In this document: positions 30,065 to 41,150 of the stretch, piece after piece
Numbering within the stretch: the stretch's first letter is position 1
How the letters are laid out: the number at the start of each line of letters is the position of its first letter
Origin: Coriobacteriia bacterium
GTDB lineage: Bacteria; Actinomycetota; Coriobacteriia; Coriobacteriales; Eggerthellaceae
Length of the DNA: 57,113 nucleotides
Direction: 5' to 3'
Assembly: GCA_030536315.1 (NCBI GenBank)
Contig: JAUNQF010000006.1
Location: 1-57,113, forward strand
Notes under the pieces: model-generated
What the model was told of the DNA's origin: nothing
Database searches by the model: none
The model's input: only the letters and a program-made list of their open reading frames with translations
Made by a program: the position numbers and the translations under genes

Positions 30065-31256
30065 GACTGTTATATAAATCTATAGTTTTTAGAATTAGAC
30101 TGTCTTGGCTAAATGTTTGCTTTGTATATTCTGCACAAGTATTTCTATCGAAGGTCTTTTCTCCTGAAAGGACAGCTTTGACTTCGCGTGCAAGTGCGTC
30201 GGGGTCTTCGGGATCAATCAAGATTCCTGTTTTATCTGTCAGTATTCCTGCGATTCCTCCATCATTTGTTCCAATAACTGGAGTGCCGCATGCGTTTGCC
30301 TCAATTACAACTAATCCGAAAGGTTCATTACGCGAAGGCGCGAGTGATACTTCCGCAACGTTGTAAAGTTTACGAAGCTTTTCGTGAGGTTGATTATGGA
30401 TGAAGTAAACATTCTTTAAACCAAGCTTTTCGCGAAGGGCAGTCATCTCATCGAAGAGTTGACCATCACCCGCAAGCACGGTTGCGGTGTCTTCGTCTTC
30501 GTATTGAGCAGCCGCACGAAGTAAAATATCTATACCTTTAAAGTGTGCGAATTTTCCTGCGAAGCTAACTAGGTGTTTATATTCTTTTTCAATTCCAAAT
30601 TCTGCTAAGACTTCTGCTCGGTTGTTCTCTTCTGGATAGAACACATGAGAATCATAACCATTAGGCATAGTGATTGCTTTTTCTGCATCATCAGGGAAGT
30701 TCTCTCGAACTTCTGCAGCATTTTTATCGCTAATACAAATTATAGAACCTGCAGCGCGTGCAGCTTTATTGCAATATTCATGGAATCTATCAGTTGCGAC
30801 GAAACCCTGGATGTCTGTTCCGTGGCAAGTTATAACTAATGGGATGTTGAATTCAGCGGCTACCGCCGAGGTCAACCAAATATGTCCGCTATGAATGAGG
30901 TCTGGCTGAAACTCTTCGACTTCTTGTGCTATTGCTTTGCGGAATGCGTCGCAATATTGCGCTTCTTGTTCTTTGCTCAGATCACGGAAGTTAAAAACGC
31001 TTCGAGGATGAGTAGTCAAACAAGGGAAGTTGAAAGGTAGGACTTCGGCGTCAACATTTGGTTTAGTGCCATCATCTGCTGTAAAGTAGATAGGGTGGCA
31101 TTTAAATGGATATCCATTATCCTCAAACGGAAGGTTATCTATAAATATAACACAGACTTCGTGTCCTTGGCGCACAAGTGCGCGAGACATATTCTCTACA
31201 TAAACACCACTTCCAGAGCCTGTTAGTGGCATGAGGTTTATCATCAAAATCTTCAT
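30057..31256 (-). CDS. Family 4 glycosyltransferase (GT-B)
   Basis: The 399-residue protein shows the GT4 N-terminal MPLTGSGSGVYVENMSRAL, a C-terminal nucleotide-sugar domain with SFAGKFAHFKGIDILLRAA, and the retaining E-x7-E element EPFGLVVIEANACGTPVIG. It transfers a sugar from an NDP-donor, perhaps to a glycolipid or glucan; the acceptor cannot be read from sequence. Its ATG overlaps the pgi stop (TAATG), so it is translated with pgi, which hints at a glucose-phosphate-derived donor. Confidence 0.87.
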   Translation of the reverse strand: MKILMINLMPLTGSGSGVYVENMSRALVRQGHEVCVIFIDNLPFEDNGYPFKCHPIYFTADDGTKPNVDAEVLPFNFPCLTTHPRSVFNFRDLSKEQEAQYCDAFRKAIAQEVEEFQPDLIHSGHIWLTSAVAAEFNIPLVITCHGTDIQGFVATDRFHEYCNKAARAAGSIICISDKNAAEVRENFPDDAEKAITMPNGYDSHVFYPEENNRAEVLAEFGIEKEYKHLVSFAGKFAHFKGIDILLRAAAQYEDEDTATVLAGDGQLFDEMTALREKLGLKNVYFIHNQPHEKLRKLYNVAEVSLAPSRNEPFGLVVIEANACGTPVIGTNDGGIAGILTDKTGILIDPEDPDALAREVKAVLSGEKTFDRNTCAEYTKQTFSQDSLILKTIDLYNSLI

Positions 31257-32599
31257 TATTCAACTTCCTTTAGTCTGTTTTCTAAGTCGTCCTTCATATC
31301 TTCGAATCCTGGTTTACCAAGAAGAGCAAACATATTTTTCTTGTAGGCTTCAACACCCGGTTGGTCAAAAGGATTAACATCAATCAAATAAGCCGAAACT
31401 GCCAAACTCTTCCAGAAGAAGTAAACCATTTCGGCAAAAGTATAGTCGCTAAGTTCATCTAAATTCAAAACGATGTTTGGACATCCGCCATCAACATGAG
31501 CAAGCATTGTCCCACGCATCGCTTGTTTGTTTACATCTTGCATTTTCATGCCGCTTGTAAAGTTAAGCCCATCAACATTTTCTGGGTCGTTTGGAATTTC
31601 CAATTGAGCTTGAGGCTTATCAACTCAAATAACTGTTTCAAATAAATTGCGAGTACCATCTTGAATGAATTGACCAATGCTGTGAAGGTCAGTTGAAAAG
31701 TTTGCAGCAGTTGGGAACAAACCCTTGTGTTCCTTGCCTTCGCTTTCTGCCATAAGTTGTTTAAACCATTCACCGAACATCATCAAAGATGGTTCATAAT
31801 TAGCCAAAATCTCAATAGCCTTACCATTTTTGTACATCAAATAACGAAGTGCAGCGTATTGCATTACATCATTTGATGCAAAATCATCATTGTCATATTT
31901 TTTGGTAGCATCGGCTAAGCCCTTCATAACGTTATCTATATTCATTCCGGCAGCAGCCATAGGCAAAAGTCCTACAGCAGTCAAGCAGCTAAAACGACCA
32001 CCAGTTGCATTTGGAACAACGAAGCGATCGAAGCCTTCGGCGATTGCCATATCATGCATTGCGCCTTTTTCACCATCGGTTGTGCAATAAATTCTATCTT
32101 TGGCTCCATCCTTGCCGTATTTTTCTTCTAGCTTTTCACGGAAAAGTCTAAAAGCAACACCAGGTTCAGTTGTAGTTCCACTTTTGCTAATTACATTTAC
32201 AGAAAAATCACGATCGCCAATAATGTCGAAGATATTTTGAATGTAAGTGCTTGAAATATTGCTTCCTGCAAAATAAACTTCAACAGCTCCTCGTTTTTTA
32301 GCAAGCTGGTTTGCAAATTGACCAAAGCTAAATTCAATACCGGCGCGAGCACCAAGATAACTTCCGCCAATTCCAATGCAAACTAAGACTTCACTTGAAT
32401 CTTGGATCTTTTTGGCAGCAGTTTTAATTCGAGCGAACTCATCTTTATCATATTCATTTGCTAAATTCAGCCATCCAAGCATCTCGGATCCTTTGCCACT
32501 TCTATCCATTAAGGTTTTGTAAGCAGCAAGTGTTTGATCTTTAACAGAGTTAAGCTCGGCTTCGCTGAAACCAGAATTTTTCGTGTTTAGTTTAATCAT
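31256..32599 (-). CDS. pgi: Glucose-6-phosphate isomerase
   Basis: The enzyme interconverts glucose and fructose 6-phosphates. With TGA (31625-31627) read as Trp the protein is 447 residues, the short Gram-positive type. It has [36 protein letters not shown], the catalytic His/Glu region [12 protein letters not shown] and [19 protein letters not shown] lies upstream of the start. It is divergent from panE. Confidence 0.94.
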
Positions 32600-33767: not shown

Positions 33768-35720
33768 ATGAAACAAAAGATTCAAAGTATGGGTCGAGCC
33801 CTGAGCGGAATGGTTATGCCAAATATTGGTGCCTTTATTGCGTGAGGTTTATTGACCGCTATATTTTTATATCCAAATGGATGGTTTCCAAATGAAGCAA
33901 TTTCTAAAATCCAGCCCTATATTCTTAATTTCTTGCTTCCTATATTAATTGCAGGTCAAGGTGGCAAGATGGTTGGTGGAACCCGAGGTAGGGTTATGGG
34001 TTCGATTGCAATTTTGGGTTGCATCGCTGCTGATTATGTTCAATACCAAGCTGCTCTTAATGAAGTTGCGGTTCAAACTGCTATGGTTGAAGCCGGAATG
34101 CTTTCCGAAGTGACAGCCACTGCCAGCACAACACCAATGCTTATGGCGGCTATGATAATGGGGCCTTTTGCTGGTTGGATAATAAAAATGTTTGACAAGC
34201 TTATGGAAGGACATATGCCAGCTGGCTTTGAAATGTTAATAAACAATTTCAGTGTTGGCATTTTTGGAATGATTTTGGCAATTATTGGTTATTTTGCGAT
34301 TGGTCCTTTTATGTCATTCATCCTAACAATTCTTGCAGGGGGAGTTGATATATTAGTTAATGCGAAGCTGCTTCCTGCGATTGCTGTTTTCTTAGAACCT
34401 GCAAAAGTTTTGTTCCTAAACAACGCAATTAATCATGGAGTCTTTACTCCTTTGGGAGCTCAAGAAGTTCAAGATGCGGGACAAAGTATCATGTATATGT
34501 TAGAAACAAATCCAGGTCCTGGCTTAGGTGTTTTGATTGCATATTGAGTATTTAGTCAAGATAAAGCAGCGAAGGATTCTGCACCTGGTGCAATTATCAT
34601 TCATTTCTTTGGAGGAATCCATGAGATTTATTTTCCATATGTTTTGGCAAATCCGCTTGTAATTATTGGTCCAATTGTTGGTAATTTCTGTGCAATTTTC
34701 TGGTTCATGATTATGGGTGCAGGCTTAATTGGCCCAGCAAGTCCTGGATCTATAGTTTCGTTTTTGATAATGAGCCCGAAAGGAGGAATTTGAATTTCTA
34801 TAGTTGGAGTTGTAATTGCTGCAGGAATTTCGTTTTTGATTTCTTCTCCAATTATCAAAATGTCAAAGGGAAAGAGTTTAGAAGAAGCAACAGCTCAAAA
34901 AGATGCGATGAAGGCTGAAAGCAAGGGTGCTGTGGCTTCGTCTGTTAAAAAGAATTCAGGCGATGTTTCAAAAATCATTTTTGCATGTGATGCTGGGATG
35001 GGTTCTTCGGCGATGGGTGCTACAAAATTTGCTAAGCGCTTGAAGAATGATCGGCCTGACATTACAGTTAAAAATTCTGCGATTGATAGCATTCCACAAG
35101 ATGCTGATATTGTTGTTTGTCAAAGTACTTTAGCTGACAGGGCTTCGAAGAAAACGCCTGCTGGTAGCCAATTAGTTCAACTGGAGAACTTCCTTGGTGA
35201 TCCAGCTCTTGATGATTTGTACAATCAACTAACTTCTGAAAAAACTAAGAAGGAGGTTAAGAAAATGGATAATTCAAAGGAAAAAACTGGAAAGAACACA
35301 AGAACAAAATTGTTAAAAGAAGGAATTAAGCTTGGGCAAAAAGCCGAAGGTAAAGATGAGGCTATTCAAGCTTCTGGTGAATTATTAAAAGAGCTTGGAT
35401 GTGTTGATGATCAATATATTGCTGCAATGCATGATCGTGAAAAAGAAGTTTCAACTTATCTTGGAATGGGTATTGCGATTCCTCATGGAACCAGCGAAGC
35501 AAAGAAACACGTTAAGAACAGTGGAATTGTATTTATGCAATATCCAGAAGGTGTTAGTTTTGGCGATGAAAAGGCATATCTAATTTTTGGTATTGCTGGA
35601 GTTGGAGATGATCATCTAAATTTGCTTGCAAAAATTTCTGAGCGTCTTGAAGACGAAGAGTTGGTTGAAAAACTCAAAAGCACTAAAGATGTTGATTTTG
35701 TTCTTAAGACATTCAATTAA
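33768..35720 (+). CDS. mtlA: Mannitol PTS transporter, fused EIICBA
   Basis: The 650-residue permease imports and phosphorylates mannitol. The EIIC membrane domain starts with [19 protein letters not shown], where the conserved Trp is TGA (33843-33845), and contains [20 protein letters not shown]. The EIIB domain has the phospho-cysteine [12 protein letters not shown] (Cys407), and the EIIA domain has IPHGT with the phospho-His573. All three are in one frame as in E. coli MtlA. A perfect internal ribosome site before Met500 could also yield free EIIA. GTGGAGGAA precedes the start. The operon continues with a membrane protein and mtlD. Confidence 0.94.
35250..35267 (+). promoter_or_regulatory. 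Internal ribosome-binding site and in-frame ATG before the EIIA domain of mtlA
   Basis: AAGGAGGT at 35250-35257 is followed 7 bases later by ATG at 35265, in frame as codon 500 of mtlA. The product would be a 151-residue stand-alone EIIA, the normal size of MtlF. Confidence 0.55.
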
Positions 35721-35735
35721 TAGTTCGGAGTAATT

Positions 35736-37121
35736 ATGAATATTGAAGAGCGTAAAGTTTTTGATCCTTATATTAGTGTTGAATACAGAAACGTAAAACC
35801 TGCAAAGACAAGCAAGAAGGAACATAAGCTTCGTCGAGTTTATAAACGCAACGTTGCACTTTCTATCATTTATACAATTATTACATTTGGTATTTATGGT
35901 ATTTTTTGGCAGTTTGAAATTGCTAAGGAAAGTAATGCCTTAAGTAAAAATGACGAAGGTTTTTGCCCAGCGCTTGTTGTGTTTTTTACAATTATTACTT
36001 GCGGAATTTATGGAGTTTACTGGGGATACAAAGTTGGTAAGAAGCACAATCAATTTTACGAAGCACATGGTGAACAAGACAAAGATTACAACGTAATATA
36101 TTTATTACTTCTTCTATTTAATTATTTGTTGCCTATACTTAGTTTAATTTGCTATGCAATTATGCAAGCTAAGATTAATACAATGCTCCGTATTGAAGAG
36201 GGGCAAAACCCTCAAGGTATATATGTTCGTGATAGTAGCATTTTTAATAGACCTTTATGAAGCACACTTATTTTGCTTTTAATTTGTCAAACTATTCCTG
36301 ATTATTTTATTTCCTTTTTTGAGCAGATGTTTATTGGTGCCCCAGGCAACCCTGCTACTCCTTTTGTTGGGGATTTGATGCAAGGTGCAATTCAAAATTC
36401 TGTAGATCAAATTGTTTATGCTGACAGCGCCTTTATGCTTGCACATAGCACATTAAGCATTTTATTAATTATTTTTGTTTTGTGGTGATTTAAACTTAGG
36501 TTTAAACATTCAAATTACGAGGGCGTATTGATTTTAAGAAATTTTGGACGCGCTTGCTTATTTATGTTGCCCGGTCTTTTATTTATAGGAATTAATGCTT
36601 TTGGTTTAAATTTTGATAACTTTAAGATTGGTATTGTTTTACTTGGTTTTGTTCCTGGATTTGTTGAGGAAATTACCTTTAGGGGTATGATAATTCCAAA
36701 CTTTATGAGAATTTATAATAGGTCTAAAGGAATTTGGTTGTCTTTATTTGTTTCAGCTGGAATCTTTGGCCTAATTCATCTTGCGAATATTTTTGCTGGA
36801 GCAGATTTTGGAACAACTTGATTCCAGGTTTTCTATGCTTTTGCAATGGGGATTTTATTTGCAGGTGTATTTATTAGAACCGGTAATATTTGACCTTTGA
36901 TTATTTGTCATGGTACTGTTGACGCTTTGGCAATGATGGCTGACGAAGCCCTGCAGCAAGGTGCAGTTCAAACTCAAGCATTTGTATTTGATCTTTCTAT
37001 TGCTCCACTTTTGGTTGTTTCTATATTCTTCATCATTTATGGAATTTTTATTTGTCGTCCTTCTAAACATGAAGAAATTTGTGAGTTGTGAAGCGAGAAA
37101 TGAGGCGACGCTATATGCTAG
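35736..37121 (+). CDS. DUF4234 / CPBP (CAAX-protease-like) membrane fusion protein
   Basis: The 461-residue protein joins two membrane modules. Residues about 40-160 are DUF4234-like, with repeated IITFGIYGIFWQFEI and IITCGIYGVYWGYKV. The second half is a CPBP-type intramembrane protease: EEITFRG (Glu311, Glu312), IHLANI and HGTVDAL provide the Glu/His residues. TGA occurs at five or more Trp positions. It lies between mtlA and mtlD, 15 bases after mtlA, and overlaps mtlD by 7 bases. Its role in a mannitol operon is unknown. Confidence 0.8.
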
Positions 37122-38260
37122 CAGTCCAGTTTGGTGCTGGAAATATAGGCCGAGGTTTTGTTGGTGCTTTGCTTCGTCAATCTAATTACGACGTAATTTT
37201 TGCTGATGTAGTTGATGATATTGTTGATGCAATAAATAATCAGAAGCAATTTACTGTTCACATTACCGATGTTAAATCCGAAGATATTTTTATTGATAAC
37301 GTTAGCGCTATTGATTCAAAAAAAGATATTTCGAATGTTTTAAAAGATGCAGATTTAATTACCACAGCAGTTGGAGTAAATATTTTGCCGAAGATTGCTC
37401 CTGCAATTGCAAAGGGTATTTCTGCCAAACATCTTGATGAAATTGAAAAACCCCTAAACATAATTGCTTGCGAAAATGCCGTTCTTGCAACTGATAAATT
37501 AAAGAATGCAGTTTACGATTTGCTAAGTGACGATGATAAAAAGTTTGCAGACAAACATGTTGGTTTTGCAAATTGTTCTGTTGATAGAATTGTTCCTCCA
37601 GTTTGTGATGCGCAAGGATTGAATGTTTGTGTTGAGCGTTATTATGAGTGAAATGTTTGTAAGCATGAACTTGTTGGCGATGTTGATATCGAAGGCGTGA
37701 ACTTCGTTGATAATTTAGAAGCTTACGTTGAGAGGAAATTGTTTACGCTAAATACTGGTCATGCAATTTGTGCCTACCTTGGATTTATTAATGACAAAGC
37801 CACTATTGAAGAGTCAATCAACGATGAAAATATTTATAAAATTGTTAAGTCTGCAATGATTGAAAGTGGTTCTGGTCTTTGCAAGAAGCATGGTTTTGAT
37901 GAAGATGCACACAAAGAATATATTGATAAGATCATTAAGCGTTTTAAAAATCCTCATTTAAAGGATTATGTTACACGTGTGGGTCGTGAGCCTCTTCGTA
38001 AGCTTTCGATTGAAGATAGATTGGTAAAGCCAATGCTTACGGCTTATGAATTTGAATTGCCGGTTGATAATTTATTGGTTGGTATTGCGGCTGCGCTTCA
38101 TTTTAATAATCCTGAAGATGCTGAAAGTGTTTTGATGCAAGAAAAAATTGCGAAGTATGGTCTTCGTGATGCAGTTGCCGATTTTACATCAATTGCTGAT
38201 AAAGAATTGTTAGATAGAATTGAAGAAAATTACTATAAGTTAATCGAAAATAATGGCTAA
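37115..38260 (+). CDS. mtlD: Mannitol-1-phosphate 5-dehydrogenase
   Basis: The enzyme oxidises mannitol 1-phosphate to fructose 6-phosphate, feeding glycolysis next to Pgi. It has the NAD motif [16 protein letters not shown], the [12 protein letters not shown] segment and the catalytic Lys/His region [17 protein letters not shown]. The ATG at 37115, 9 bases after GAGG, gives 381 residues, the E. coli length; a GTG at 37088 would add nine residues without support. TGA at 37649 is Trp. It overlaps uvrA by 8 bases. Confidence 0.94.
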
Positions 38261-41150
38261 GAACATTTGCATAAAGGGTGCTCGGGAGCACAATTTAAAG
38301 GATGTTAATATTGACATCCCTCGCGATAAGTTTGTAGTTATTACAGGACTATCTGGTAGTGGAAAAAGTAGTCTTGCTTTTGACACGATGTATGCTGAAG
38401 GTCAGCGCCGCTATGTTGAGAGCCTTTCGAGTTATGCTCGTATGTTTTTGGGACAGATGAGTAAACCTGATTTGGATAGTATTGATGGTTTGAGTCCGGC
38501 TGTTTCGATTGATCAAAAAACAACAAGTAAGAATCCGCGTTCGACAGTTGGAACAACTACAGAAATTTATGATTATTTACGTTTGTTGTTCGCGCGCGTT
38601 GGTATTCCTCATTGTCCGGAATGCGGGCGTGTGATTGAGGCTCAAACTACTGATCAAGTTACCGATGAAATATTAAAACTTGGTAATGGCGATGACAATA
38701 ATCCAACTCGAGCGATTATTTTGTCTCCTGTTGTGGCAGGCAAAAAAGGCGAATACACAAATTTCTTTGCTGATTTATTAAAGCAAGGTTTTAGCCGCGT
38801 TCGTATAGATGGTGAAATTAAAAAACTTGACGGAAAACCAATTCGTTTAAATAAACAAGTTAAACATTTTATTGATGTTGTAATTGACAGGGTTCAATTA
38901 AAGAGTGACGCAACAAGCCGAATTGCTGATGCCGTTGAACTTGCTACCAAACTTTCCGAAGGGCGAGTTCTTGTTCAAGTTTTAGATGAAAAGGATTCGC
39001 AAGTTAAGGCTTCAAAAGTTTCAAGTGGTGCAAAGGGTGGAATTGCCGAAGGCGAGCACATCTTTAGTTTGGCTCTTGCATGTCCTGAACATGGTCACAG
39101 TATGGATGAGCTAAAGCCTCGTGATTTTTCATTTAACGCACCATATGGTTCGTGTCCAGATTGTTTGGGTATTGGATACAAAGATGAAGTTGATCCAAGT
39201 TTAATTGTTCCGGATAAATCTCTTTCAATTGCCGAAGGTGCGATGGCTCCCTTCGTAAGTGGAAATTATTATCCGCAAGTTTTGGCTGCTGTTTGTAAAC
39301 ATGTTGGCGTCAGTGTTGATACACCTTGGCAAGATTTACCGAAGCGTGCTAAAGATGCTTTGATGTATGGACTTGGTGATGAAGAACTTCGTGTTGATTA
39401 TGTGACGGTGGACGGTAGGCACACCCATTGATATATTGATTGAGAAGGTGCGAGCGGTGCAATTAAGTATCGTCTTAAAAAAGCAAAAAGTGATAGGCAG
39501 CGTGAAAAGTTTGAGAAGTACTTCGCAACTCGCAAGTGTGAAACTTGTAAGGGTCAACGCTTAAAGCCTGAAATTTTGGCTGTGACAGTTGGTGGAAAAT
39601 CAATTCATGACGTTACAACGCTAAGTGCTGCAGAGTGTTACAAATTCTTTGAACATATTAATGATTATCAAAAATTTAGTGATGCTCAACATCAAATTGC
39701 CGATCCAATTATTAAAGAGATTAAAGCTCGTTTGAAATTTTTAGTTGATGTTGGTTTGGATTATTTAACTTTGGAGCGTGCTACCGCAACTTTGTCTGGT
39801 GGCGAGGCTCAGCGCATCCGACTTGCAACTCAAATTGGTGCTGGACTTGTTGGCGTGCTTTATATTTTGGATGAGCCAAGCATCGGACTTCACCAGCGAG
39901 ACAATGCTCGTTTAATTGCAACCTTGGAACATCTTCGTGATTTGGGTAACACAGTTGTTGTTGTTGAGCATGACGAAGAAACAATTCGCAGTGCTGATTA
40001 TGTTGTAGATATGGGTCCACTTGCAGGTGAACATGGTGGCTATGTTGTGGCTGCAGGAACACCTAAAAAGATTGAACAAGTTAAGAAATCTATAACTGGT
40101 CAATATTTAAGTGGTGCAAAAAAGATTGAGACTCCGAAGGAACGTCGTTCAAAAAATAATGGGAAGCTTGTTTTGACAGGTGCAAAACAACATAATTTGC
40201 AAAATGTAAAACTGGAAGTTCCTCTTTCAACTTTTACAGTTGTTACTGGTGTTTCAGGTTCTGGAAAAAGTTCTTTAATTGCAGATACTTTAGCTCCAGC
40301 TCTTTCAAATATGTTAAACAGATCTCACAGAAGTACCGGTGAATATAAAAAGATAAGTGGTCTTGAATATTTAGATAAGGTTATTACTATTGATCAAAGT
40401 CCAATTGGAAGAACTCCGCGAAGCAACGCCGCAACTTACATTGGTCTTTGAGACGACATTCGCGCATTATACGCAAGCACCCCGGATTCAAAGATTCGAG
40501 GCTATTCTCAAGGACGTTTTTCATTCAATGTTCCTGGAGGCAGATGTGAAGCATGTCGAGGCGAAGGTCAAATTAAAATTGAGATGCACTTCTTGCCAGA
40601 CATCTATGTTCCTTGCGAAGAATGTCATGGCACACGTTATAACAGAGAAACTTTGCTTGTGAAATATCGAGGCAAAAATATATCGGACATTTTAAATATG
40701 ACTGTTGATGAAGCTTTGAAGTTCTTTGAAAATATTCCAAACATTAAGCGAAAGCTTCAAACACTTTATGATGTTGGTCTTGGTTATATTCATTTAGGGC
40801 AGCCTGCAACAACATTGTCTGGTGGCGAAGCTCAGCGCGTCAAACTTGCAAGTGAACTTCAAAGAGTTCAAACGGGTAAGACATTTTATATTTTGGATGA
40901 GCCAACAACGGGTCTTCACTTCGAAGATGTTCGTCAGCTTCTTAATGTATTAAACAGACTTGTTGATAGTGGAAATACAGTTTTAGTTATCGAACATAAC
41001 TTAGATGTTATAAAATGTGCAGACCACATTGTTGACTTAGGTCCAGAAGGTGGAGATGGTGGTGGAAAAATTATAGCTACAGGTACACCTGAAGAGGTTG
41101 CAAAGATCAAAGGTTCTTATACAGGAGAATTTTTAAAGAGGATTTTATAA
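38253..41150 (+). CDS. uvrA: Excinuclease ABC subunit A
   Basis: UvrA recognises DNA damage in nucleotide excision repair. The 965-residue protein has two ABC modules: Walker [10 protein letters not shown] (32-40) and a second GVSGSGKSS near residue 667, each with a LSGGEAQR signature, plus zinc modules CPECG and CRGEGQ...CEECHG. TGA codons at 39429, 39441 and 40449 are Trp. Its start lies inside mtlD, so this repair gene is transcribed with the mannitol genes. Confidence 0.96.

Follow-up and report, generated by a model that had tools for sequence, protein, structure and literature searches.

A candidate internal ribosome binding site in a fused mannitol transporter gene of a coriobacterium and its possible product, a free EIIA

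Can a gene for a fused mannitol transporter also direct the synthesis of its last domain as a protein of its own? This question is raised by mtlA of a Coriobacteriia bacterium of the family Eggerthellaceae, located on a contig of 57,113 nucleotides (JAUNQF010000006.1), the whole of which is referred to here as the window. Within mtlA, the Shine-Dalgarno (SD)-like sequence AAGGAGGT is found upstream of an ATG in the linker between the EIIB and EIIA domains (Table 1). The genome is a metagenome bin of 1.09 Mb in 31 contigs and 75% complete.

Table 1 Features of the mtlA region, in window coordinates.
Feature	Position	Strand	Evidence
mtlA, fused mannitol PTS EIICBA, 650 aa with TGA read as Trp	33768..35720	+	NF011663, Pfam
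IIB-IIA linker, approximate, Lys/Glu-rich	35219..35315	+	Conserved EIIB end to first EIIA strand in relatives
Weak hairpin pairing part of the SD	35227..35258	+	RNA fold of 81 nt
AAGGAGGT, SD-like, 8 nt	35250..35257	+	Sequence, genome-wide motif count
Candidate internal ORF, free EIIA, 151 aa	35265..35720	+	Frame, EIIA alignment, AlphaFold2
DUF4234 + CPBP (Rce1-like) protease gene, 461 aa	35736..37121	+	Profile matches
mtlD, mannitol-1-phosphate 5-dehydrogenase	37115..38260	+	Profile matches

From its ATG, mtlA remains open only when its three in-frame TGA codons are translated as Trp (W26, W260 and W342). The protein scores 690.6 bits against NF011663 (PTS mannitol IICBA; cut-off 589), and Pfam places EIIC at residues 14-300, IIB at 402-484 and EIIA_2 at 517-649, the EIIC-EIIB-EIIA order of an EIICBA protein. 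Against the EIIC model TIGR00851 it reaches 410.9, below the cut-off of 468.4; its EIIC carries about 31 extra residues. Relative to the nearest relative in the same family (G014) and to most other relatives, this insert comprises residues 88-118 (34029-34121), and in one protein, L162, a shorter insert occupies this position. The motif ACDAGMGSS is present in EIIB, and the His of IPHG in EIIA is invariant in 28 of 28 aligned EIIA sequences, as is a second His. We take the Cys in EIIB and the His in EIIA, both present in MtlA, to be the phosphorylatable residues. mtlA is followed by the gene for a DUF4234 and CPBP-protease protein and then by mtlD; the three apparently form an operon. The mtlD frame is open already from 37079, with profile matches starting at residue 13 of that frame.

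The internal SD and ATG of mtlA are a true and rare sequence feature. A spacer of 7 nt (TAAGAAA) separates AAGGAGGT from the ATG at 35265-35267, which is in frame with mtlA and opens a reading frame of 151 codons (MtlA residues 500-650) ending at the TAA common to both (35718-35720). The start of mtlA itself has a weaker SD, GGAGG only. The first-pass annotation had described a perfect SD and a well-spaced in-frame ATG in the linker before EIIA, the SD being read as Lys-Glu-Val in the long form, and a short product of the size of a stand-alone EIIA. All of this holds: the SD codons encode K495-E496-V497 and the ATG M500, between the Pfam boundaries of EIIB and EIIA. The in-frame start codon with an SD that a gene within a gene would have is thus present in the sequence.

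AlphaFold2 predicts that the 151-residue product folds alone into a complete EIIA fold (pLDDT 91.7, pTM 0.85). In the model, the first 15 residues are without secondary structure, residues 6-11 having a pLDDT below 50. Alignment with EIIA domains extends over the whole folded part of the short form, with 13 columns invariant in 28 sequences, and the E. coli EIIA-Mtl domain alone has a solved structure (1a3a, 148 aa). As modeled, the short product is a plausible free EIIA with an unstructured N-terminal tail. Folding of an 81-nt RNA yielded a minimum free energy of -8.5 kcal/mol (z -1.46; 16 of 200 shuffles were as good). The hairpin pairs part of the SD, and the SD part is less accessible than at most starts, only 18% of 225 starts being less open there; taken as a whole, the SD-to-ATG region is more open than at 76% of these starts. 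A clear regulatory role of RNA structure was set aside, the fold being weak.

We would put the chances at about even that the variable linker of an old EIICBA gene became a near-ideal ribosome binding site, at which some ribosomes initiate and make a soluble 151-residue EIIA. Here, mtlA would be an ordinary fused mannitol transporter gene, the IIB-IIA linker of which drifted or was selected, in this lineage, into a ribosome binding site followed by an in-frame ATG. Some of the ribosomes would most likely start at 35265 by leaky internal initiation, so that free EIIA would occur beside the membrane-bound EIICBA. It could be phosphorylated by HPr and pass the phosphate on to EIIB in trans; alternatively, it may simply add EIIA capacity. 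Action of free EIIA-Mtl on EIIB in trans is known from systems with a separate MtlF.

The main rival of internal initiation is chance, i.e., a fast-changing Lys/Glu-rich linker that happened to spell KKEVKKM with AAG-GAG-GTT and yields little or no EIIA, or EIIA as neutral noise. We regard this as a serious possibility, if short of probable. Genome-wide, AAGGAGGT occurs 20 times, versus 58 times for the reversed control pattern. In our own classing, by open frames and protein sequence, 11 copies are at gene starts, five are internal in sense orientation, two are antisense and two are unplaced; the internal sense copies include those in a ClpP-like and a ribosome-hibernation-factor-like gene (names read off the sequence). 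An ATG follows 4-9 nt downstream of 10 copies, nine of them at apparent gene starts and one internal, the mtlA site, which is the only one of the five internal sense copies with such an ATG. The association of the motif with gene starts elsewhere in the genome, and the fact that mtlA holds the sole internal site of this kind, argue against chance. The 3' end of the 16S rRNA, sought in the bin for a check of the anti-SD, was not found, and the use of this SD therefore rests on the 11 of 20 copies at gene starts.

A 277-kb sample with 217 ORFs was scanned for internal in-frame ATGs. Excluding ATGs less than 30 codons from the start or less than 50 from the end, an 8-nt SD match was found at one of 1697 internal in-frame ATGs, again the mtlA site, and at 3 of 217 chosen gene starts, a figure generous to starts because these were chosen for good SDs. 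Resampling of synonymous codons with the proteins fixed predicted 6.3 internal copies of AAGGAGGT versus one seen, and only 2.3% of 300 draws had as few. The motif is thus rarer within genes than codon usage predicts, and the genome seems to avoid such sites. For AAGGAGGT with an in-frame ATG, 0.31 sites were expected per 85,387 codons and at least one was present in 29% of draws; a single such site per sample is therefore not improbable alone. An extraordinary choice of codons for the SD was rejected on the basis of the resampling and of codon usage, since AAG and GAG are ordinary in the sample (42% and 27% of Lys/Glu codons). In a Lys/Glu-rich linker, an SD-like motif arises easily, and the mtlA site was picked after the fact. 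Its position exactly at a domain border speaks against chance and adds weight, but it is itself a post-hoc feature. Overall, the site is partly more than chance.

SD-like elements have also been reported to pause elongation strategically in membrane-protein mRNAs (PMC4359368), and the site marks a domain border of a membrane protein. The element could accordingly halt elongating ribosomes at this border, letting EIIB fold or EIIC insert before EIIA is made, with the ATG being incidental. We consider this improbable: the enrichment described in that report lies early, at codons ~15-65, versus codon 495 here (PMC4359368), the element is absent from relatives of the same architecture, and a pause element would need no ATG at SD spacing.

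Of the 138 genomes of the family, two gave an MtlA match; at the level of the order, 75 of 395 did. A readable linker was obtained from 70 of these 75, the window included, and all 70 genes are fused; the other five were EIICB only (G179) or partial (G230, in which no linker anchor was found, G262, G294 and G296). In a related Bacillota order, 47 of 315 genomes gave matches, with both fused and split genes; 17 fused genes were read besides L037 and L039, and 11 split ones, while L036 and L038, being duplicates of L010 and L013, were left out. In total, 89 fused linkers were read, i.e., the window, 69 other Coriobacteriales and 19 others. The 8-nt SD is present in none of the 88 other linkers, a set that holds no second species of the same genus. 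This lack of conservation speaks for the chance explanation. The best SD among them spans 6 nt, e.g., AGGAGG with GTG in Collinsella tanakaei, and the nearest relative of the same family, G014, is fused without the internal site. Conservation of the signal among relatives, as a gene within a gene would show, was thus not found.

In a tree of EIICB (46 rows), the window gene pairs with that of G014 (support 99/99) inside a 25-member clade in which 25 of 25 genes are fused (100/100). The window gene thus has only fused genes around it, and its fusion long predates the internal site; going by the sequences compared, the site was acquired recently and in this lineage only. The EIIA tree, which has long branches and weak joins, places the window EIIA among fused EIIAs next to that of G014 (91/17, a weak join), and we relied on the EIICB tree instead. 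The fused MtlA proteins of Coriobacteriia and of one Bacillota order (L009, L010, L162-L171) group in one well-supported clade, a pattern suggestive of transfer between phyla.

These trees bear on the earlier proposal that mtlA and mtlF were once two genes that became joined when the mtlA stop codon was lost, so that the site would be what remains of the mtlF ribosome binding site. The size and start position of the short form do resemble those of stand-alone EIIA genes (~145 aa), and split mtlA genes exist in other lineages. The proposal is nonetheless not supported, and we rate it as very unlikely: it is contradicted by the EIICB tree, by the fused G014 gene and by the 88 linkers without the 8-nt SD, and the EIIA tree and a linker length like that of fused relatives likewise speak against it. 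In the comparison with split-gene relatives that the first-pass annotation had suggested, the split mtlA genes proved to be more distant and to end directly after EIIB; close relatives with separate genes, as a recent mtlA-mtlF fusion would leave, were not found among the genes read. An assembly or sequencing error, for which an incomplete bin in many contigs offers some opening, is scarcely credible, as the frame runs unbroken through the site and relatives show the same fused architecture.

For internal initiation giving free EIIA speak the perfect SD, its standing as the sole internal site, the domain border and the predicted complete EIIA; against it speak the missing conservation, the Lys/Glu-rich linker and the partly paired SD, and elongating ribosomes may occlude an internal SD. 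Initiation, abundance and any benefit of the free EIIA are what we infer from these features. In B. subtilis, the EIIA of PtsG is described to work when held at the membrane and to be almost entirely defective when freed into the cytoplasm (PMC6148471); a soluble EIIA thus need not be useful. Other EIIA-2 domains in the genome are found in FruA and in one stand-alone protein, so that EIIA is not missing otherwise. The stand-alone protein (145 aa; L073 2049-2486; G000 C9 near 63057-63479) is encoded amid apparently non-PTS genes and is nearest to FruA-type EIIA.

In its most far-reaching and rather doubtful form, internal initiation would amount to a fused PTS gene being re-split by translation, the ribosome binding site in the linker letting one cistron yield the transporter plus an excess of soluble EIIA that acts in trans on EIIB or on regulators. 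If true, a gene fusion could in this way be reversed without any stop codon. If the site is used at all, few linker changes would let a domain of a fused transporter regain independence, EIIA levels could be adjusted independently of those of the transporter, and annotation may be overlooking products of fused PTS genes in little-studied bacteria. If unused, it would illustrate well that a gene can tolerate a perfect ribosome binding site in its interior. A literature search for an internal EIIA start or another PTS example found no report, which is not proof of absence.

A separate observation concerns the genetic code. In this coriobacterial genome UGA is read as Trp: TGA makes up 47.5% of 918 Trp codons in the 277-kb sample, and the reading is seen in mtlA, uvrA (38253-41150), pgi (31256-32599), mtlD and others. 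UvrA has three TGA codons here and none in the sister genus (G014, 84% identity). UvrA matches were obtained in 133 of 137 genomes of the family and, among the matches listed, TGA occurs elsewhere only in a broken copy with two. A profile search of the genome for RF2 gave none over the cut-off. A tRNA-Trp(CCA) with a 5-bp anticodon stem is present; scanning of the 277 kb revealed no tRNA(UCA). Neither Coriobacteria nor Eggerthellaceae is named in the main text of either of two genetic-code screens (PMC8629427, PMC13092985). This recoding seems to us more surprising than the internal start in mtlA.

Taken together, the internal site is possibly functional and not conserved, and it would represent a kind of phenomenon already known. 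E. coli K-12 MtlA has the same domain order, and its EIIA matches by way of 1a3a (E 1.9e-32), but its linker, unlike that of the window gene, has neither a Met nor an SD. The short form resembles the stand-alone MtlF (EIIA-Mtl) found beside an EIICB-type MtlA in its domain and approximate size (144 aa in L040); MtlF, however, is a separate gene, whereas the EIIA frame here is nested in an EIICBA gene. A comparable layout is seen in the endolysins CTP1L and CD27L, in which an SD-like element and a start codon in the linker of a two-domain protein give a free C-terminal domain, the binding domain of CTP1L being made separately in this way (PMC4777826). In those lysins, the arrangement has been demonstrated by mass spectrometry, by mutation and by structure, and it is conserved among related lysins (PMC4777826), while the mtlA site is known from sequence alone, in one genome. 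SpaO of type III secretion belongs to a protein family different from MtlA; its short form is conserved in a wide range of bacteria, a phenotype results when this form is lost, and as would be the case for mtlA, one gene gives both the full-length protein and a C-terminal form from an internal start (PMC13059759).
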